Shown here piece by piece: positions 1 through 28,178 of a stretch of 64,000 nucleotides of DNA. Positions within the stretch are counted from its first letter, which is position 1. Each line of letters begins with the position of its first letter. A program made the position numbers and the translations under genes. Source of the DNA: Alphaproteobacteria bacterium (GTDB lineage: Bacteria > Pseudomonadota > Alphaproteobacteria > Elsterales > Elsteraceae); contig RDXE01000038.1 of NCBI GenBank assembly GCA_004292755.1, forward strand, positions 1-64,000. Direction: 5' to 3'. Below the pieces are notes generated by a model, which saw nothing but the letters and a program-made list of their open reading frames with translations, did not search any database and was not told the DNA's origin.

Positions 1-157
1 CTGTGTCCGATAGCGTTTGATCGGCTTGGCGGTACGCTGTAGGAACAGCGCGTGCCAGTGCTCCGGTTCGGATGGCTGGGCATCACAAGTGGCTGGGGGA
101 GGCGTGCGACGATGGTCGGTGCCTCTACACTCAGGCCAAGGGTAAGGAACTGTCGCA
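1..157. other. Upstream region of the type I secretion operon
   Basis: Left window edge before the exporter gene. I see no convincing coding frame and no clear promoter. It probably holds the leader of the secretion operon, because AAGGAAC at 143-149 lies close ahead of the start codon at 158. Confidence 0.4.
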
Positions 158-1906
158 ATGATGCAGTCGCTCAACCGCATGCAGCCCAAGAGCCCAGAGA
201 TGAAACGGGCGCTGAAACTCTGCATGCCATACATTGGCGCCGCCGCACTGTTTTCCGGGGCGATCAATCTGTTGTTTCTCGCCCCTTCGCTCTACATGCT
301 GCAGGTCTATGACCGTGTGCTGAGTTCTGGCAGCGGCTGGACGCTGGTTATGTTGACGGTGGCGGTTGCTTTGGCGCTGCTGGTCATGGCGGTGCTTGAT
401 CCCTTGCGCGCACGCGTTCTGATCCGCGTCGGCATCAAGCTGGACAATCTGATGGCCAAGCGCGTGCTGTCAGCGCTGGTGGAGCGTGGCGTGACTGCTG
501 GCTCTGACCGGTATCGCGAAGCACTGCGTGACTTTGACAATTTCCGGCAGGTGATGACCGGCACGGGCATTCACGCGATTTTCGATCTGCCTTGGGTGCC
601 GATCTATATGGCCGTGATGTTCTTGCTGCACCCCTGGTTTGGTGTGCTGGCGGTTGGTGCTGCTCTCGTACTGGGCCTGCTGGCAATCGCTAACGAGTTG
701 GCGACCAAAAAGGCCTTGCAGGTCGCCAACTCCTACGCTGTGCGCACCTATGGATTCACCGATGCCACCCTGCGCAATGCGGAGGTGGTGCAGGCCATGG
801 GCATGCTGCCGGGCGTGACGAAGCGATGGGCACGCGACCGCGAGGCGATGATGGGCTATCAGGCCGCCGCCTCGGACCGCGCTGCCGACTTGGGCGGTGC
901 AATCAAGTTCGCCCGCATGTTCGTGCAGTCCGCAGCCCTTGGCATGGGCGCGTGGTTGACCGTGCAGCAATCGGTCACGGCCGGCGTGATGTTCGCGGCC
1001 ACCATCCTGCTGGGCCGGGCGCTCGCCCCAGTGGAGCAGGCGGTTGGCGCCTGGAAAGGCTTGATCCTGGCGCGGCAGTCGCTGACCCGCGTCACGGATC
1101 TTTTGACGGCGGTACCACCGCGCGAAGTGGCGATGCAACTCCCTGCCCCACAAGGGCGTGTGGGGTTGGAGCGCGTGGTCTATGCGCCCCCAGGTACCGA
1201 GAAGGCGATCATCAAAGGCGTCAGCTTTGACCTTGCAGCTGGTGAAAGCCTGGGTGTGATTGGCCCATCGGCCGCTGGCAAATCGACGCTCGCCCGCCTG
1301 ATCGTGGGTGTGTGGCGGCCCAACAGCGGTGCCGTGCGCCTGGATGGTGCCGATGTGTTCACTTGGGACCGGGCGGACTTTGGCCGCTATGTCGGCTATC
1401 TCCCCCAGGATATCGAGCTGTTTGCTGGCACAATCCGCGAAAACATCGCCCGCTTCAGCGATGCGGACCCCGATCAAATTGTGGAAGCTGCCAAACGGGC
1501 GGGTGTGCATGACATGATCCTGCGCCTGCCCCAGGCCTACGACACAGAAATCGGCCAGGGCGGCGAGGTACTGTCCGGTGGTCAACGTCAGCGGATCGCG
1601 CTGGCACGGGCGCTGTTCGGCAATCCGCGCCTCCTGGTGCTGGATGAGCCCAACGCCAACCTCGACAGCGAAGGCGAGATGGCGCTGAACCAGACCCTGA
1701 TGGATCTGAAGCAGGCTGGGACCACCATCGTGATCATCGCGCACCGCCCGTCGGTTTTGAACGTGGTGGATCGGGTGTTGGTGATGCGCGATGGCTTGGT
1801 GGAAATGTTCGGCCCGCGGGCGGAAGTGATCGCTAAGTTGACCTCCAATGTCGTTCGTCCGGCTGCCTTTGCCGGGTCGCCGCAGCCGCCAGCCCCGCAG
1901 GGTTGA
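158..1906 (+). CDS. Type I secretion system ABC permease/ATPase (PrtD family)
   Basis: Inner-membrane ABC exporter that would power one-step export of a protein (typically an RTX protease, adhesin or S-layer-like substrate) together with the HlyD adaptor that follows and a TolC-type outer-membrane channel not in this window. At 582 aa it has the PrtD layout without an N-terminal C39 peptidase domain. Hydrophobic helices begin at about residues 24-46. The ATPase domain shows Walker A GPSAAGKST at 369-377, signature LSGGQ near 472-476 and Walker B LLVLDEP near 492-498. The adaptor gene starts 11 bp after the stop, so the two are co-transcribed. The substrate is unknown because no RTX-repeat protein lies in the window. 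Confidence 0.93.
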   Translation: MMQSLNRMQPKSPEMKRALKLCMPYIGAAALFSGAINLLFLAPSLYMLQVYDRVLSSGSGWTLVMLTVAVALALLVMAVLDPLRARVLIRVGIKLDNLMAKRVLSALVERGVTAGSDRYREALRDFDNFRQVMTGTGIHAIFDLPWVPIYMAVMFLLHPWFGVLAVGAALVLGLLAIANELATKKALQVANSYAVRTYGFTDATLRNAEVVQAMGMLPGVTKRWARDREAMMGYQAAASDRAADLGGAIKFARMFVQSAALGMGAWLTVQQSVTAGVMFAATILLGRALAPVEQAVGAWKGLILARQSLTRVTDLLTAVPPREVAMQLPAPQGRVGLERVVYAPPGTEKAIIKGVSFDLAAGESLGVIGPSAAGKSTLARLIVGVWRPNSGAVRLDGADVFTWDRADFGRYVGYLPQDIELFAGTIRENIARFSDADPDQIVEAAKRAGVHDMILRLPQAYDTEIGQGGEVLSGGQRQRIALARALFGNPRLLVLDEPNANLDSEGEMALNQTLMDLKQAGTTIVIIAHRPSVLNVVDRVLVMRDGLVEMFGPRAEVIAKLTSNVVRPAAFAGSPQPPAPQG

Positions 1907-1917
1907 GGAGAGCCGCC

Positions 1918-3297
1918 ATGATGATGACTCAGTCCGGCGGGTCGGCCCCGACCCCGGCTCAATCCCAGCGCGCACAGATCGAGCGGCTGGCCCAATCCGT
2001 TCCCTTGGTCACCGAAGACGCCACCAGCACCATCCGCTTGGGCGTTGCGATCATGATCTTGTTCTTTGTTGTTCTCGGCGGCTGGCTGGCGGTAGCCCCC
2101 CTGGCCTCAGCCTCAATGGCGCCTGGGACGATTCGCGTCGAATCGCACCGTCAGGCTGTCCAGCACCTGGAGGGTGGCATCGTCCGCGAAATCCTGGTGC
2201 GCGAAGGCCAGTTGGTGCGCGAAGGCGATGTGTTGATCCGTCTCGACGACACCCAAGCCAGGGCCGGCTACGAGATCGCGCTGAACCAATACCTCGCCCA
2301 AAAGGTGGTGGAAGCACGGCTGGTTGCCGAGCGTGACAATCAGCCAACCATGACACTTCCGCCCGAGGTCACGCGCCATCAGGCGGACCCGGCGATTGCC
2401 CAGATGATCCTGGCGCAACAACAACTGTTCCTCGCCCGGCGAGAGACGCTGTTGGGCCAGGAGCAGGTACTGCGGCAACGCATCGCCCAAGCGCAGGAGC
2501 AAATCCGCTCTGCGCTAGCGCAGGAAACCTCCCAACGCCAACAGCTTGCGTTGATCCGTGACGAGCTGCAAGGCACGCGGGAGTTGTTTGAACGCGGCTA
2601 TGCCCCGCGCACCCGCGTGTTGGCGTTGGAGCGCACAGCCGCCGCGCTGCAGGGGCAGATGGGCGAATACACGGGCATTGCCGCCCGCACGCGCCAACAG
2701 GTGGCGGAGAACGAACAACAGATCCGCCAAACCCAGCGTGACCGCATTCAAGAAATCGCCGACCAACTGCGGGACAGCGCGGCCCGTCTGGCCGACCTGG
2801 AGCCGCGGGTGCGTGCAGCACGCGATGCTCTTGATCGCGTTGAGATTCGCGCGCCGATGACGGGCTTCGTCGTGGGCTTGCAAGTATTCACCGTGGGCGG
2901 CGTCGTCAATCGCTCCGACCGGTTGCTGGAAGTGGTGCCTGAGGGTGCGACGCTGGTGGTCGAAGCACAGTTGCCGGTCACCGATGGCGATGATGTTCGC
3001 GAAGGCATGCGGGCGGAGTTGCATCTCACCTCAGTGAAACGCAGCCGTGGCATCCCTGTGGTGCAAGGCGTCGTGCGCACGGTGTCGGCTGATCGGTTGA
3101 CCGACCAGCGCAGCGGCATGCCCTACTTCACGGCACTGGTCGAAGTGAATCAGGAGAGCCTGCGAGAACAGACGGACATCACCTTGATCCCCGGCATGCC
3201 GGTCGACGTGATTATTCCGCTGCGCGAACGCTCTGCGTTGTCGTACTTGATCCAGCCGCTGCTGGCGGGCCTGGATCGCGCGGGGCGGGAACAGTAG
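1918..3297 (+). CDS. HlyD-family type I secretion periplasmic adaptor
   Basis: Membrane-fusion protein linking the upstream ABC exporter to an outer-membrane TolC-type channel across the periplasm. The 459 aa protein has a cytoplasmic N-terminus, one membrane helix at about residues 45-65, a lipoyl-like half motif (HLEGGIVREILVREG), a long Gln/Glu/Arg-rich coiled coil in the middle, and a C-terminal beta-barrel region ending PGMPVDVIIP, all usual for PrtE/HlyD. I chose ATG 1918 because GAGGAG lies 7-8 bp before it; a TTG at 1903 overlaps the previous stop and is less likely. Confidence 0.93.
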   Translation: MMMTQSGGSAPTPAQSQRAQIERLAQSVPLVTEDATSTIRLGVAIMILFFVVLGGWLAVAPLASASMAPGTIRVESHRQAVQHLEGGIVREILVREGQLVREGDVLIRLDDTQARAGYEIALNQYLAQKVVEARLVAERDNQPTMTLPPEVTRHQADPAIAQMILAQQQLFLARRETLLGQEQVLRQRIAQAQEQIRSALAQETSQRQQLALIRDELQGTRELFERGYAPRTRVLALERTAAALQGQMGEYTGIAARTRQQVAENEQQIRQTQRDRIQEIADQLRDSAARLADLEPRVRAARDALDRVEIRAPMTGFVVGLQVFTVGGVVNRSDRLLEVVPEGATLVVEAQLPVTDGDDVREGMRAELHLTSVKRSRGIPVVQGVVRTVSADRLTDQRSGMPYFTALVEVNQESLREQTDITLIPGMPVDVIIPLRERSALSYLIQPLLAGLDRAGREQ

Positions 3298-3351
3298 TCG
3301 CGCCTTTGCTATCGTCACCCGGATCGTCCCAACCCTCTGGTTTTCCGTGTC

Positions 3352-4686
3352 ATGAAGATCTTATTCGCGCACCAGAACTTCCCCGGCCAGTTCAAGCACC
3401 TGTGCCGCCACTTTGTGGAGGAGGGTGGGCACGAACTATACTTCCTGACACGGGACAACCAGAATCGCATCCCCGGCGTGGAACGCTTGGTGTATGAACC
3501 GCAGCGTGAGGTGACGCGCGGCATCCACCACTACATTGCCGAGTATGAGAAGGCGATCCTCTACGGCCAAGCCTGCGTGCGCCATGTGGTGGCACTGAAA
3601 GAACGCGGCTGGAAGCCAGACATCATGATCGGCCACAATGGCTGGGGCGAGACCCTGTTCCTGAAGGATGTCTTCCCAGATGTGCCGATGCTCAGCTACT
3701 TTGAGTTCTTTTATAACTCCTGGGATGCTGATTGCTCTTTCGACCCAGAATACCCGATGAGTTTTGATGACCGTCTGCGCGTGCGGGTCAAGAACTCAAC
3801 CAACCTGACCGGTCTGGTGGCGGCCGACTGGGGCTTGTCGCCCACCAATTGGCAGCGCAGCCGCTATCCGCTGGAGTTTCAGCAAAAGATCTCCGTCATT
3901 CACGAAGGGGTGAACACCGACGAGCTGGTGCCCGACCCAACGGTGACAGTTACCCTGGCCGATGGCCGGGTGCTTACCCGCAATGACGAAGTGATCACCT
4001 ATGTCAGCCGCAATCTCGAACCCTATCGCGGCTTCCATACGGTCATGCGCGCCTTGCCGGAAATTTTGCGCCGCAGACCCAATGCAATTGTGTTGATGAT
4101 CGGTGGCGATGACGTCTCCTACGGACGTCGCCTGCCAGAAGGCGAAACCTACAAGAAAAAGTATCTAGCAGAGGTAAATATTGATCCCAGCCGCGTGCTA
4201 TTTCTCGGCAAGATTCCGTATGAACAGTTTGTTGGCGTGCTACGACTGTCAGCTGTCCATGTTTATCTGACCTATCCATTTGTGCTGTCTTGGTCGATGC
4301 TTGAGGCGATGTCACTTGGCTGCATGGTGGTTGGCTCACGCACGCCTCCCGTGATGGAAGCTCTGGAGCATGAGAAGACCGGCCTGTTGGTTGATTTCTT
4401 CTCTACCACTGAGCTGGCCGACGCCGTGGATCGGGTGCTGGACCATCCAACCCGCATGCAGCATCTGCGCGATGCCGCCCGGCAGCACATCATCAACACC
4501 TACGATCTGAAGCGGATTTGCCTGCCGCAAACCTTGACGCTGATCCGGGAGTTGGCAGCCCGCAAGCGACCGACCGTCGGCTTGTGGAAGCCGCCAGTCC
4601 AGATGGCTGCCCCAGCAGCTGCCAAGCCCGTTATCCTGCCCGCCAGTCGCTCGCGCGTGCCAGCCAATCTGCGCCGCGGGCGTTAG
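3352..4686 (+). CDS. Glycosyltransferase, GT4 family
   Basis: Cytoplasmic retaining glycosyltransferase of GT-B fold, 444 aa. The N-terminal domain starts MKILFAHQNFPGQFKHL, a form typical of a GT4 subgroup. The C-terminal nucleotide-sugar domain contains YVSRNLEPYRGFHTVMRA, MIGGDDVSYG and EAMSLGCMVVGS, whose glutamate is the usual donor-contacting residue. It follows the secretion genes by 54 bp, so it may glycosylate a secreted or surface product; that link is inference. Its stop overlaps the convergent ROK gene by 4 bp. No strong ribosome-binding site is visible. Confidence 0.85.
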   Translation: MKILFAHQNFPGQFKHLCRHFVEEGGHELYFLTRDNQNRIPGVERLVYEPQREVTRGIHHYIAEYEKAILYGQACVRHVVALKERGWKPDIMIGHNGWGETLFLKDVFPDVPMLSYFEFFYNSWDADCSFDPEYPMSFDDRLRVRVKNSTNLTGLVAADWGLSPTNWQRSRYPLEFQQKISVIHEGVNTDELVPDPTVTVTLADGRVLTRNDEVITYVSRNLEPYRGFHTVMRALPEILRRRPNAIVLMIGGDDVSYGRRLPEGETYKKKYLAEVNIDPSRVLFLGKIPYEQFVGVLRLSAVHVYLTYPFVLSWSMLEAMSLGCMVVGSRTPPVMEALEHEKTGLLVDFFSTTELADAVDRVLDHPTRMQHLRDAARQHIINTYDLKRICLPQTLTLIRELAARKRPTVGLWKPPVQMAAPAAAKPVILPASRSRVPANLRRGR

Positions 4687-5597
4687 CCAGCGGCTGCCTC
4701 GCCCTCGCGCGGCCATAGCCACGCCGCACCGCGCACGCCAGAGCTGTCACCATGAACCGGCGGCAGCAGCGGCGTGTCGCACCGGTCAGAGAAGACGTAG
4801 CGTTGCCAGATCACTGGCACGGTGCAGTAGAACCGCATCACCTTGGAAAGACCGCCGCCCAGCACAATGGCATCGGGGTCCAACAGGTTGATCACGCTGG
4901 CCAGAGCACGGGCCAACTGATCCTCATAGCGGGCCAGAACCATGTCGGCGGCAGCCTCGCCTGCCTCGGCCGCTGCCACCAACGCAGCAGCGTCCCGTCC
5001 CCCCGCCCGTGCCAGCGCAGGGCCGCTGAGGAACGTCTCAATGCAGCCATGGCGACTGCAATAGCAGGCGGCTCCAGGCCGCTCGTCGTCGCGGGGACTG
5101 GGCAGGGGATTGTGCCCCCACTCGCCAGCAATCGCGTTGGCGCCCGCCAGGGGCACGCCATCCACCACAATACCCCCACCGACACCGGTGCCGAGGATCA
5201 CACCAAACACCACCCGCTGCCCGGCAGCCGCACCGTCGGTCGCCTCGGAGACCGCAAAGCAGTTGGCGTCGTTCTGCACGCGCACTGGTCGCTGCAACGC
5301 CGCCGCAAGGTCCTGGTCCAGCGGTTGGCCGTTCAACACCACGGTATTGGCATTCTTGATCCGCCCGGTCGCGGGGGAGATTGCCCCCGGCATCGCGACG
5401 CCAACACTGGCACGCACGCCGGCCTGATGCTCGATCCCACGCACCAAATCGGCAACCGATGCGACAATCGCCCGATACTCCTGCGCGGGCGTAGGCACAC
5501 GGCGACGAACCAACTCCTGACCATCTGGGGCGAGCAGGATGGCTTCGGTCTTTGTCCCGCCAAGATCGACGCCAATCCGGTAGCGCGCCTCAAGCAT
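4683..5597 (-). CDS. ROK-family sugar kinase
   Basis: Cytoplasmic ATP-dependent hexose kinase (N-acetylglucosamine kinase, glucokinase or fructokinase type), 304 aa. The phosphate-binding motif GVDLGGTKTE is at residues 10-19. The ROK zinc site is seen as CYCSRHGCIETFLSGP, and GTGVGGGIV is the second nucleotide-binding loop. I chose ATG 5597 ([14 protein letters not shown]) because longer in-frame starts add 12 residues with no family similarity. It overlaps the start of its stop-side partner, the beta-propeller gene (5590-6600), by 8 bp, so the two are translationally coupled. The actual sugar cannot be read from sequence. Confidence 0.88.
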   Translation of the reverse strand: MLEARYRIGVDLGGTKTEAILLAPDGQELVRRRVPTPAQEYRAIVASVADLVRGIEHQAGVRASVGVAMPGAISPATGRIKNANTVVLNGQPLDQDLAAALQRPVRVQNDANCFAVSEATDGAAAGQRVVFGVILGTGVGGGIVVDGVPLAGANAIAGEWGHNPLPSPRDDERPGAACYCSRHGCIETFLSGPALARAGGRDAAALVAAAEAGEAAADMVLARYEDQLARALASVINLLDPDAIVLGGGLSKVMRFYCTVPVIWQRYVFSDRCDTPLLPPVHGDSSGVRGAAWLWPREGEAAAG

Positions 5598-6600
5598 GGG
5601 GCGCGATGTAAATGCCGTGTGGGCTGCGCCCAACCCGGATGCGGTGCTTCAATTGACCCGTCGCAACATCCATCACCATCACCTGGTGGTTGACCCGCCC
5701 CGTGATCCACACCTCCCGCCGGTCCGGCGTCAGCGCGAAACAGTCTGGCCCGCCGGGGATCGGGAAGCTGCGCAGCACCTGCAAGGTGCGGTGGTCCAGT
5801 TGAGACACGGTATTGTCCACCCGGTTGGAAATGAACAGCGTGCCCTCATCGAAAAGTTGTGGGAATGCATGGGCGCCGCGGCCAGTGCGCACGCGATTGA
5901 CAATCCGCCGCTCCAGACGATCCACCATGGCCAAATGGTCTGAGCCCATGATCGCCACCCCCAGGGTGCGATTATCGGCCGCGAGAATGATTCCCGCAGG
6001 CTCCGGCCCGACATCCATCGTCCAGGTGTGCTGCAACTGCTCCAAATCCACTTCGATCAGGCGACCGGTTTGCTGCACCGTCAGATAGGCGAATCGGCTG
6101 TCCGGCGAGATCACGATGTGGCTGACCATGCGCGGGATGCGAATGCGGGTCAGCAGTTGATAGTCCGCCGCGCGATAGACAGCGACGGCGTCCAGCCGCA
6201 GCTCAGCCACCACCAGGAACCGACCGTCGGGGCTGAACAGCAAGTGATAGGGGTTGGAGAATCGCTCGATCCGGCGCAGCGTGCGACCCGTGATCGCGTC
6301 CAGAAACACCAACTCATTGCCAACGGCATTGCCGATCACCAACTCCCGCCGGTCCGGGGTCAGCGCCCAGTGATGCGGTTCGCGCCCAATCGGCCGACGC
6401 TCAATCTCGCGATAGGTGGTCGGGTCCAGGAAGGACAGGCTGTCCTCGCCCGAATTCATCACCACAACAGGCGACGCAGCCGGAACGGCTGGCTGTGGCG
6501 GGTTGGTCTGACCTGCGGCAACAGATGGCAGGCCAGCAACACCGGACAGGCCAGCCATGGCTGAGCCAGCAAGAAACAAGCGGCGGGACGACGCATTCAT
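5590..6600 (-). CDS. Secreted YncE/YVTN-type beta-propeller protein
   Basis: 336 aa protein with an N-terminal signal ([17 protein letters not shown], twin arginine followed by a hydrophobic stretch), so probably exported by Tat. The mature part is a seven-bladed-type propeller built of repeats such as [46 protein letters not shown] and [16 protein letters not shown]. Proteins of this YncE/surface-layer propeller class bind ligands or partner proteins; no catalytic motif is visible. It is first in a two-gene operon with the ROK kinase and divergent from secA. Function unknown. Confidence 0.8.
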
Positions 6601-6654
6601 CCCCGCCAGATAGTCCTTGGCACCCCGCTGGGCAAGGGCTGGCGCGCTGCTGCG

Positions 6655-6683
6655 TTGACAGGGGGGTGGCAGGTGCTTATCTG
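6655..6683 (+). promoter_or_regulatory. Candidate sigma70-type promoter for secA
   Basis: TTGACA at 6655-6660 is a perfect -35 box. It is followed after 17 bp by TATCTG at 6678-6683, a weak -10. The element lies in the gap between the divergent propeller gene and secA and would give a leader of about 65 nt before the secA ATG at 6756. Confidence 0.5.
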
Positions 6684-6755
6684 TCCCGCGATGCCGCCAC
6701 CGGTCTCTCCCCGGCGGTCCGGCGCCCCTACGGTGTAGCAGGTTCGAGGTCTTTG

Positions 6756-9533
<2,778 letters not shown>

Positions 9534-24980: not shown

Positions 24981-25613
24981 TCAAACCAACCGACTCTCCG
25001 GCAAGCCAGCTTGAGCCAACACGAACCGGGCAATGTCTTCAACTGCTTTGCCCGCACGGATGTTGGCGAATAGGAACGGGCGCTCGCCGCGCATCTTGCG
25101 GGCGTCCCGGTCCATCACCTCCAGACTCGCACCCACCATGGGGGCTAAATCGATCTTGTTGATCACCAGCAAATCAGAGCGGGTGATGCCGGGCCCGCCC
25201 TTGCGCGGGATTTTATCGCCTGCCGAGACGTCGATCACATAAAGCGTCACGTCTGCCAGTTCGGGGGAGAAGGTGGCGGAGAGGTTATCACCGCCGCTTT
25301 CGATGAACAGCACCTCCAAATCTGGAAAGCGCGCGATCATGCGATCCACAGCAGCAAGGTTGATCGAGGCATCCTCCCGGATCGCGGTGTGTGGGCAGCC
25401 GCCGGTTTCGACACCGTCAATCCGGTCAGCCGCCAGCGCGCCAGAGCGGATCAGGAACTCCTGATCTTCGCGGGTGTAGATGTCGTTGGTAATCACCGCC
25501 ACATTCACAGTGGCGCGCAGGCGCTTGCACAACGCATCAACCAGCGCAGTCTTGCCAGAGCCAACCGGCCCCCCAACACCCACCCGCAGCGGTCCGCGAT
25601 TGCTGTCGATCAT
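24981..25613 (-). CDS. ureG: Urease accessory GTPase UreG
   Basis: 210 aa. P-loop GPVGSGKT at 15-22, the metal-binding GGCPHTAIR region (residues about 71-79) and NKIDLAP G-box are all as in UreG, which delivers nickel to apo-urease with UreE, UreF and UreD/H. It overlaps ureF by 4 bp. The urease subunits ureABC and ureD are not within the window, so this ureEFG block stands alone here. Confidence 0.96.
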
Positions 25614-26278
25614 GTGCGAAACACCCTCGTGCTTAAGGTTTCATGGGCCATCGATGCAAAGTCGAGCGCGATGGCGCCGCTGCCCAGACTGTCCAACGCT
25701 GGCGGTGCGGCAGCCAAGGCCAGCACGGCAGGCTCCAAGGCTGCTTGGGCGGCTACTCCGTCAGATTGGCCTAACGGCACAGCACGCACGGCTGCCGAGA
25801 CCATCGCCCCCACAAACGCGGCGAGATAGGCGGCGAGTGCTGGCTGACAGGCAATGCCTGCGGCCTTGGCGGTAGCGGCCACCGCCACTGGCAGCGGCAA
25901 CCCCCGCGGTGGCTGGAACTGCGGCCAGCCCGCGGCGACGGCACGGGCAAAGGCATCGCCTTGCAACTCAGCCTCGTGGGCAAGCTCGGACGTGCTTCGC
26001 CAAGCGCGGGCGAGCGATGCAATGGAGCCAAGATCGTGATCCCACACCGCAGCGAACAAACCGGCATCCACCCGGCCTGAGCCCCGCGTCACCACTCCGT
26101 CCAGCCATGCGATCAGCTGCGCGCGCGTGCGCACCCAGCCGAGCTCCACAGCCGCTTCCAACCCATGGGAGAAGGCATAGCTGGAGATCGGGAAGCCAGG
26201 GGATAGCCACGTCTGCAATCGGATCAGGCGGCCTGCATCGATGCAAGCGCCACCCTCCCCCTCAGTGGTGGTGCCCAT
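25610..26278 (-). CDS. ureF: Urease accessory protein UreF
   Basis: 222 aa all-helical protein that acts in the UreG-UreF-UreD nickel-insertion complex. The family motif [20 protein letters not shown] is at the N-terminal end. ATG 26278 is preferred (another ATG lies at 26290); either start overlaps the UreE end. It overlaps ureG by 4 bp. Confidence 0.92.
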
Positions 26279-26732
26279 GATCGTGACCATGACCAGCGGT
26301 GCCGTGATAGGCGCCGGGGTCGGGCTCAAAGGGCAGGTCGACCATCTCAACTTCGGCGCCCAACCCGGCCGCCATCTCCGCCAGCACGGGATCGGCGGGT
26401 GTGATCAGCGCATCGGCCAGCACTTGAATGGGGGCGTGCCGATTGCCGATCGCCCAGGCGATGCGGGCCAGGGTGGCCGGGGCGTCGGCGCGCAGGCGCA
26501 GGCACGGCTCGGCCTTGGCGGAGACCAGGATGAAGGTGCCGTCGTCGCACTTCAGCCCATCACCCTCCGCCAACTGCACCGGACGCGGCAAATCCAGCAG
26601 GAAGGTTTCGCCACTGTCGGTCGTCATCTGGACGCGCCGCCGGTGGCGATCATGATGATCCAGAGTGACCCTGGCGTTCGCCGCCGCCAGGGACCACGTC
26701 CCGCGAATGAAGACTGCCGATGCCCGTCGCAT
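26262..26732 (-). CDS. ureE: Urease accessory nickel metallochaperone UreE
   Basis: 156 aa. The N-terminal domain has LTLD-like VTLDHHDRHRRRV; the C-terminal domain contains IGNRHAPIQV with the conserved nickel-site His. The tail is His-rich ([14 protein letters not shown]), as in UreE proteins that store nickel. ATG 26732 is chosen over an upstream start because it gives MRRASAVFIRGTW, like the family. The end overlaps ureF. Confidence 0.92.
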   Translation of the reverse strand: MRRASAVFIRGTWSLAAANARVTLDHHDRHRRRVQMTTDSGETFLLDLPRPVQLAEGDGLKCDDGTFILVSAKAEPCLRLRADAPATLARIAWAIGNRHAPIQVLADALITPADPVLAEMAAGLGAEVEMVDLPFEPDPGAYHGTAGHGHDHGHHH

Positions 26733-26834
26733 GGCCGCACTGTGACCCGGTGCTGTTGCAGTGCGCAAGAGGCAGGCATCCCGTGACCGGTCCGGATGGG
26801 CGCGGTGGTCGCCCCCATCCGGCGGTCGGCGAGG

Positions 26835-28178
26835 TTAGCCAGCCGTCGCGATCACCGAGCCGAGAGGCACGGGGTTCGGGTCATTGCGATGCTGAATCGC
26901 ATTCACCGCCCATTCCTCCAGCGTCACCCGGTCTTTCTGGAACACCATGACGTGAGTGGAGCCGCCGAACTCGAAATGGCCGATCTCGGTGTCGCGCTCA
27001 ATCGGCTTCGGCTGGCCACCCTCTGGAATGAGATAGGCTTCGTCGATCACACAGGTGGACACTTCCACCATGCCGATGCAGATCAGCGCGACATATCCGC
27101 AGGTCTCGTGTTCGAACAGGAAAATCGCGCGGGTCGCGACATGGCCGAGATAGGGCTGAGACTCGGTCCCTTCCCAGGTACCGGGGTCTTCGCCTTGACC
27201 CGGACGCTGGGCAAAGTAAGTGCCCGGCTGGACCCAGGAGCGGAGCAGCGTGCCAGTCAGCGGCGAGCGCCAGCGGTGATAATGGGTGGCCGACAGGAAG
27301 CCCTGGTACAACTGACCGCCGACGAACAGTTCGGCAATGTTCCGCTGACCACCAAACAAGTCGAGCAGAGAGTAGTTGGCATCCTTAACCCAAAAATAGG
27401 TCTCGAGTGCCACGCTTTTCTCATACTGCCAAGGCGTGGTTTCGCAGCCGATGTTGATCTGGGTTACTGGATTCCCATGATAGGGCCGCGCACCCTTGAC
27501 GAACTCCCGGATGAAAAAGCTGTTCCAGGAGTCAAACCCAAAGCCTGGCAGGTCTGGATTGTACTGCATGTCGGTCCAGACACCGGCCTTGAACGCGGCT
27601 TCAGAAATCCACGAACCCGGCTTCTCGCGATCATTGATGTCCAGTTTGTCGAGCGAGTCGGCGCGTTTCAGGAATGCGTTCCACGCATTCAGCACCTTCT
27701 TGAACTGTGCATTGAAGGTCATGTCGTGGAACAACGCCACACCCGCCCTGGTGCCCATCGCAATGGCCAGAAAGCCATTCATCGGCGTGCCAACCTGCGC
27801 GGTGTTGTTGAACGAGGGCGAGGTGGTGATGATCTCGTTCAGGATTTCGAAGAAGCTGTCGTAGCTCTTGATCCACAGCGTATCGCCATCATCATGCTTG
27901 ATCTCGTCGCGAACCGACGTGTCGAGGGTGCAGGTCACGCCATTCGCCTGCCCGATCATCGAGGTCAACCACATGCGATAGACGCTGTTGGTGGTGACCC
28001 AATCCTTGAACTCCTGCATCTCAGGGGTCAGTGGCGCCAGGGTTCCGGCTTTGCGCTTTTCCTCAATGTGACGGCGCAGCGGCACCAGATAGGTGGCCGT
28101 GCCCCACACACTGTTGGGCACCCAGAATGCCATCTGGATCGGGTCGCTGGTCTCTAGTGTAAGCAACGGGTGTGACAT
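26835..28178 (-). CDS. Phosphatidylserine-decarboxylase-family protein, PsiD-like amino-acid decarboxylase candidate
   Basis: 447 aa, longer than lipid PSD. The N-terminal third resembles the PSD-associated (PSDC) domain (TPMNGFLAIAMGTRAGVALF). The catalytic part shows FGFDSWNSFFIREF, YQGFLSATHYHRWRSPLTG with the PSD His, PGTYFAQRPG, and GHFEFGGSTH, whose Gly-Ser bond near S407 would self-cleave to the pyruvoyl cofactor. The PSD PADG motif is replaced by GCETT. From memory, fungal L-tryptophan decarboxylase PsiD shares the PSDC domain, the HRWxxPxxGT, PGTYFAQ and GGSS features and a CES in the same place, so an amino-acid substrate is more likely than phosphatidylserine. AGGAGGA 5 bp before ATG 28178 is a strong ribosome site. 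It is not overlapped with ureE (102 bp gap). Confidence 0.82.
   Translation of the reverse strand: MSHPLLTLETSDPIQMAFWVPNSVWGTATYLVPLRRHIEEKRKAGTLAPLTPEMQEFKDWVTTNSVYRMWLTSMIGQANGVTCTLDTSVRDEIKHDDGDTLWIKSYDSFFEILNEIITTSPSFNNTAQVGTPMNGFLAIAMGTRAGVALFHDMTFNAQFKKVLNAWNAFLKRADSLDKLDINDREKPGSWISEAAFKAGVWTDMQYNPDLPGFGFDSWNSFFIREFVKGARPYHGNPVTQINIGCETTPWQYEKSVALETYFWVKDANYSLLDLFGGQRNIAELFVGGQLYQGFLSATHYHRWRSPLTGTLLRSWVQPGTYFAQRPGQGEDPGTWEGTESQPYLGHVATRAIFLFEHETCGYVALICIGMVEVSTCVIDEAYLIPEGGQPKPIERDTEIGHFEFGGSTHVMVFQKDRVTLEEWAVNAIQHRNDPNPVPLGSVIATAG

Follow-up and report, generated by a model that had tools for sequence, protein, structure and literature searches.

A PSDC-domain decarboxylase gene of an Elsteraceae bacterium and its bacterial relatives, predicted to act on free amino acids

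The window analysed here, a stretch of 64,000 nt of the Elsteraceae contig RDXE01000038.1, carries on its minus strand (26835-28178) a gene whose 447-aa product resembles both the lipid enzyme phosphatidylserine decarboxylase (PSD) and the Psilocybe L-tryptophan decarboxylase PsiD, which raises the question of whether it acts on a membrane lipid or on a free amino acid, and if the latter, on which one. The answer we favour is that the protein is probably soluble and uses a pyruvoyl group to decarboxylate a free amino acid; it has the PSD fold and belongs to a distinct subfamily (here W-type) of the PSDC/PsiD branch.

The gene product and an ordinary PSD in the same genome

The gene is real: its open reading frame has an ATG start with GGAGGA just upstream, and the protein is 62–73% identical to the products of 31 loci elsewhere. 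It encodes a predicted proenzyme with two Pfam domains, both matched far above cut-off, these being an N-terminal PSDC (PsiD-type) domain (PF12588, E 8.7e-33; residues 52-197, 27588..28025, minus strand), which is helical in the AF2 model, and a catalytic PS_Dcarbxylase domain (PF02666, E 8.5e-26; residues 218-422, 26913..27527, minus strand). The AF2 model (pLDDT 81, pTM 0.82), made with an input alignment without plasmid-derived rows, found its best PDB fold matches in apo and tryptamine-bound PsiD (E 1e-21), followed by the free and arginine-bound forms of the A. oryzae arginine decarboxylase (2e-18) and then by E. coli PSD (2e-11). Matches of the protein to solved structures followed the same order, with PsiD (8x4q/8zia) at E ~4e-33, the A. 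oryzae enzyme (9jer) at 2e-31 and E. coli PSD at just 3e-5. Both solved PSDC-type relatives are free-amino-acid decarboxylases. The protein had been described as soluble-looking, and indeed no signal-like stretch was recognised at its N-terminus and no transmembrane one elsewhere: hydropathy over 19 residues peaks at 2.0 (at 360), where the model has buried strands.

A role as lipid PSD, or as a backup for the normal one, would agree with the shared catalytic fold, with PS_Dcarbxylase being the matching Pfam model for the catalytic domain, and with the label 'phosphatidylserine decarboxylase family protein' that relatives carry in the databases. However, Cys-Glu-Thr replaces the ADG motif of the lipid enzyme, no membrane segment was recognised, and all NCBIfam PSD equivalog models scored far under their cut-off (best 61 bits, cut-off 371), so that the protein does not qualify as a PSD equivalog. 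The PSDC branch is also split from four PSD-branch sequences with an SH-aLRT of 100, which places the window protein outside the genuine PSDs, a grouping with which had been named as counting against the original prediction. Furthermore, the source genome (4.2 Mb, 99.9% complete) encodes a separate, ordinary PSD on contig 30 (G000:C30, PS_Dcarbxylase E 2.5e-44, a 231-aa frame with SPADG and FGS), and the gene following it reads by eye as CDP-alcohol phosphatidyltransferase-like. Finding this second PSD shows that the original prediction was mistaken in placing the window gene 'in place of' the lipid enzyme, and it also removes the absence of any other PSD, which had been named as counting against the PsiD-like assignment. 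Lipid PSDs share with the window protein the catalytic fold, the Ser-derived pyruvoyl site and the His144 equivalent, but differ in having the ADG motif, a membrane lipid substrate and no PSDC domain, and taken together we regard phosphatidylserine as a highly improbable substrate.

Catalytic residues and relation to the fungal enzymes

The PsiD-like architecture originally proposed is present, with the two domains, Cys-Glu and GGST, and the protein also contains the HRWxxPxxGT and PGTYFAQ motifs. Residues C245, E246 and S407 pair with A89, D90 and S254 of E. coli PSD in the alignments, the Cys-Glu-Thr of residues 245-247 (27438..27446, minus strand) thus lying at the ADG of the lipid enzyme, with E246 opposite Asp90, while His301 of the His301-Arg302-Trp303 motif (27270..27278, minus strand) pairs with His144. 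The sequence Gly405-Gly406-Ser407-Thr408 (26955..26966, minus strand) is invariant in the alignments, pairs with Gly253-Ser254 of E. coli PSD and is the predicted self-cleavage site, at which Ser407 would give rise to the pyruvoyl group. Within the PSDC family alignments C245, E246, H301, G405, G406, S407 and T408 show little or no variation. We infer that the proenzyme would cut itself between Gly406 and Ser407, turning Ser407 into the N-terminal pyruvoyl group of a short C-terminal chain (~40 aa), with which the amino group of the substrate would form a Schiff base; CO2 would then be lost with the help of His301 and Glu246, and the amine released.

One residue sets the W-type sequences apart from most of the family. 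Position 304, which corresponds to His147 of E. coli PSD, a member of the maturation triad, is Arg in the window protein and N, R, Q, K or S in 33/34 W-type sequences (Asn in most, with His in the remaining one), compared with His in 68/72 other bacterial PSDC sequences and a retained His equivalent in PsiD. The A. oryzae arginine decarboxylase likewise has Asn at this position, yet its PDB entry gives two separate chains, and maturation without the His147 equivalent therefore looks possible. GCET is found in 34/34 W-type sequences, whereas the other PSDC sequences mostly have A-C-E-S/A.

Both PSDC enzymes that we know to have been characterised come from fungi. PsiD (PDB 8x4q, 8zia) and the window protein have in common the PSDC plus PS_Dcarbxylase architecture, Cys-Glu where lipid PSDs have PADG, HRW, GTYFAQ and the GG/S processing site, and PsiD is the best fold match, but the two are only 29.6% identical over 361 columns. 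The A. oryzae arginine decarboxylase (PDB 9jer, 9jf5) shares the architecture and the catalytic columns, and has an arginine link in common with one W-type locus (L038, see below), but is 28.3% identical and has GTYFAE instead of GTYFAQ. In the best tree both fungal enzymes nest with a second group of bacterial PSDC proteins, here called E-type, at 100/100 and outside the W-type clade, although PsiD and 9jer are each on a long branch. The E-type proteins are ~37–43% identical to both fungal enzymes, and the window protein is 28–32% identical to PsiD, 9jer and E-type alike, that is, to any characterised or operon-linked member. In the available text of PMC12283126, the A. oryzae enzyme is described as a pyruvoyl ADC and counted among five convergent arginine decarboxylases, and no bacterial member of this type is named there. 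Our literature search, which covered few subscription papers, turned up none that deals with PSDC enzymes of bacteria, and their novelty is accordingly provisional.

Distribution of the W-type subfamily and the urease genes

In 84,980 species genomes, 429 relatives of the window protein were detected, and among the best 80 of these, 31 loci from 7 phyla were W-type (62–73% identity), with the remainder at most 38% identical. The W-type sequences form a single clade (100/100) on a long stem (1.6–2.6 changes per site), and are present in Pseudomonas, Dickeya, Prodigiosinella, Derxia, Desulfobacter vibrioformis and a Prolixibacteraceae isolate, as well as in metagenome bins, where contamination is possible, of Acidobacteriota, Bacteroidota, Atribacterota, Bipolaricaulota and Actinomycetota. 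Only two W-type genes, the window's own and one other, were found in the 385 sampled genomes of its class, and no relative was detected in the viral contigs scanned or in phage records other than an ordinary Acinetobacter psd. The W-type is a tight but phylogenetically scattered subfamily of a little-studied family, apparently spread horizontally. Its checked neighbourhoods looked mutually unrelated apart from L038, without recurring neighbours or a shared operon. In one genome, a PSDC gene (L149, G984:C35:65368-66709) occupies two frames with a stop between the halves, and is likely to be a pseudogene.

The window gene itself looks horizontally acquired, as a gene of this type was absent from all members of the family searched, and the GC content is 55–58% in the core of the gene region versus ~67% just downstream (gene 58%, window 64%); composition alone is weak evidence here, since the DNA on the other side of the gene is also low in GC. 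As noted originally, no phosphatidylserine synthase (PSS) gene lies beside it. It is followed on its own strand by ureE (26262..26768, minus strand; NCBIfam UreE models), 66 bp downstream, and then by ureF and ureG (24981..26281, minus strand), of which ureG is above the TIGR00101 cut-off and ureF is recognised by homology to relatives. On the other side, 28518-54322 holds what by eye from the translations is an exopolysaccharide-type cluster, with acyltransferase, chain-length/tyrosine-kinase, polysaccharide deacetylase, asparagine synthase-like and glycosyltransferase genes.

The proximity to ureEFG on one strand would allow for a urea/arginine catabolic unit, in which arginine is decarboxylated to agmatine, agmatinase yields putrescine and urea, and urease releases ammonia, and both agmatinase (TIGR01230, above cut-off) and the urease alpha gene are present in the source genome. 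However, the urease alpha gene is on another contig (C36), apart from the ureEFG genes of the window (24981-26768), and in the family members G001, G005 and G007 ureEFG is grouped with the remaining urease genes, and no PSDC gene adjoins it. There was also no urease gene among the scanned W-type neighbours, let alone a recurrent one, and the lower GC content suggests a recent arrival of the window gene. We consider such a unit very unlikely, and rejected the urease genes as an incidental neighbourhood.

Arginine-agmatine loci and the choice of substrate

Informative context came from the E-type relatives, which are annotated as 'phosphatidylserine decarboxylase family protein' and are 29–32% identical to the window protein. 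Five loci combine an E-type gene, contig-cut in one of them, with an antiporter of the arginine/ornithine type, and two of the five also contain aguA (agmatine deiminase) and aguB (N-carbamoylputrescine amidase). The E-type gene directly adjoins a TIGR00905 APC antiporter (basic amino acid/polyamine antiporters of the arginine-ornithine, histidine-histamine or arginine-agmatine type) in Enterobacter cancerogenus (L010), Photobacterium damselae (L012), G543 (L121) and G966 (L141). At L141 (6988-11962, minus strand), the order of transcription is aguB, aguA, antiporter and E-type enzyme, with aguA and aguB above the NCBIfam cut-offs, and the step missing from this pathway is the decarboxylation of arginine. 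The L141 E-type enzyme is predicted to be a pyruvoyl-dependent arginine decarboxylase with the PSD fold that supplies the synthesis of putrescine, and is of a kind that is annotated as PSD family, and this operon makes the arginine decarboxylase idea directly testable.

The two groups meet at L038, a 7-kb metagenome contig, where two different PSDC enzymes share one apparent arginine-agmatine operon (65-6936, plus strand): the E-type gene is followed on one strand by a frame that by eye is porin-like, by aguB and aguA, and then by the W-type gene and an antiporter. The E-type copy is contig-cut and 80% identical to that of L141, while the W-type gene between aguA and the antiporter is 68% identical to the window protein. 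This gene set resembles the Chlamydia aaxABC cluster, an arginine-agmatine exchange system consisting of a pyruvoyl arginine decarboxylase, an antiporter and a porin, with the decarboxylase activity being predicted in L038; the chlamydial decarboxylase has another fold, however, making this a functional analogy only. The aaxABC cluster is named in the available text of PMC2720952. Based on the E-type loci with antiporter or aguBA and on the W-type gene of L038, the PSDC family looks like one of soluble pyruvoyl-dependent decarboxylases of free amino acids. For the window protein, a free amino acid as substrate is likewise probable from its domains, its catalytic columns, its split from the PSDs and the arginine context of its E-type cousins.

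Which amino acid this would be is less clear. Arginine, with agmatine as product, is the only substrate with contextual support and the best-supported candidate, although a tentative one, as the context for the W-type comes from L038, 1/34 W-type genes in an arginine operon. The E-type copy of that locus may be its real arginine enzyme, which would count against an arginine reading of the W-type. Also set against arginine are the unrelated neighbours of the other checked W-type genes, which are usually solitary where E-type genes are antiporter-linked in several genomes, the 28–32% identity to any characterised or operon-linked member, the loss of a His147 equivalent that most bacterial members keep, and the source genome, in which no agmatine deiminase and no TIGR00905-type antiporter was found. 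That genome does encode the agmatinase, which speaks for the arginine reading, and three Orn/Arg decarboxylase-fold proteins. A search of 399 Burkholderiales genomes gave no further W-type gene with an antiporter. Another amino acid, neither arginine nor aromatic, is about as likely a substrate as arginine.

The original prediction pointed to an aromatic amine such as tryptamine, as would be made by a bacterial functional counterpart of PsiD. PsiD is indeed the top fold match, 17 W-type consensus residues (including G293, P318, Q324 and P326) are common to PsiD only versus 10 common to the arginine enzyme only, and a clade of W-type and PsiD is tolerated by the AU test (p 0.35). Nevertheless, PsiD is placed elsewhere in the best tree, no aromatic-metabolism neighbour was identified, and neither P318 nor Q324 is confined to the W-type, so that a special tie to tryptophan is not supported: PGTYFAQ was rejected as a mark of tryptophan, with P318 in 21/72 non-W bacterial sequences and Q324 in L141, the clearest arginine-operon enzyme. 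As the motif is not diagnostic, it neither favours nor disfavours tryptamine, and with both fungal enzymes nesting with the E-type and the arginine-agmatine-putrescine operon as the only informative context, we consider an aromatic substrate unlikely. Position 324 failed equally as a mark of arginine, since among W-type genes only that of L038 has Glu there, but L141 has Gln.

For the family as a whole, it seems reasonably likely that W-type proteins are bacterial pyruvoyl amino acid decarboxylases with a substrate of their own, whose gene has moved singly from phylum to phylum, and that bacteria have in the W-type and E-type enzymes of the PSD fold a hidden source of biogenic amines, one of these enzymes being an arginine decarboxylase for agmatine-putrescine operons. 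If free amino acids are indeed the substrates, the label 'phosphatidylserine decarboxylase family protein' is misleading for many bacterial genes, and bacteria would have a route to amines, agmatine among them, that has so far gone uncounted, including via plasmid-borne copies in Enterobacter and Photobacterium. PsiD of the psilocybin pathway would then have relatives in bacteria for which an ancestral role in the metabolism of arginine and polyamines is plausible.

The Enterobacter antiporter-decarboxylase pair is located on the conjugative plasmid pUPC1 (L010:465-6236) beside an EmrA-type efflux pair and a YfdX protein, which suggests a mobile acid-stress module; a DNA-level search of E. coli genomes found no copy of the pair. 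Finally, in the genus g478 PSDC genes lie near pyrBI and a YfcC-like transporter (L139 and L142, by eye), with argR also near in L139, and these neighbourhoods are possibly another arginine link.
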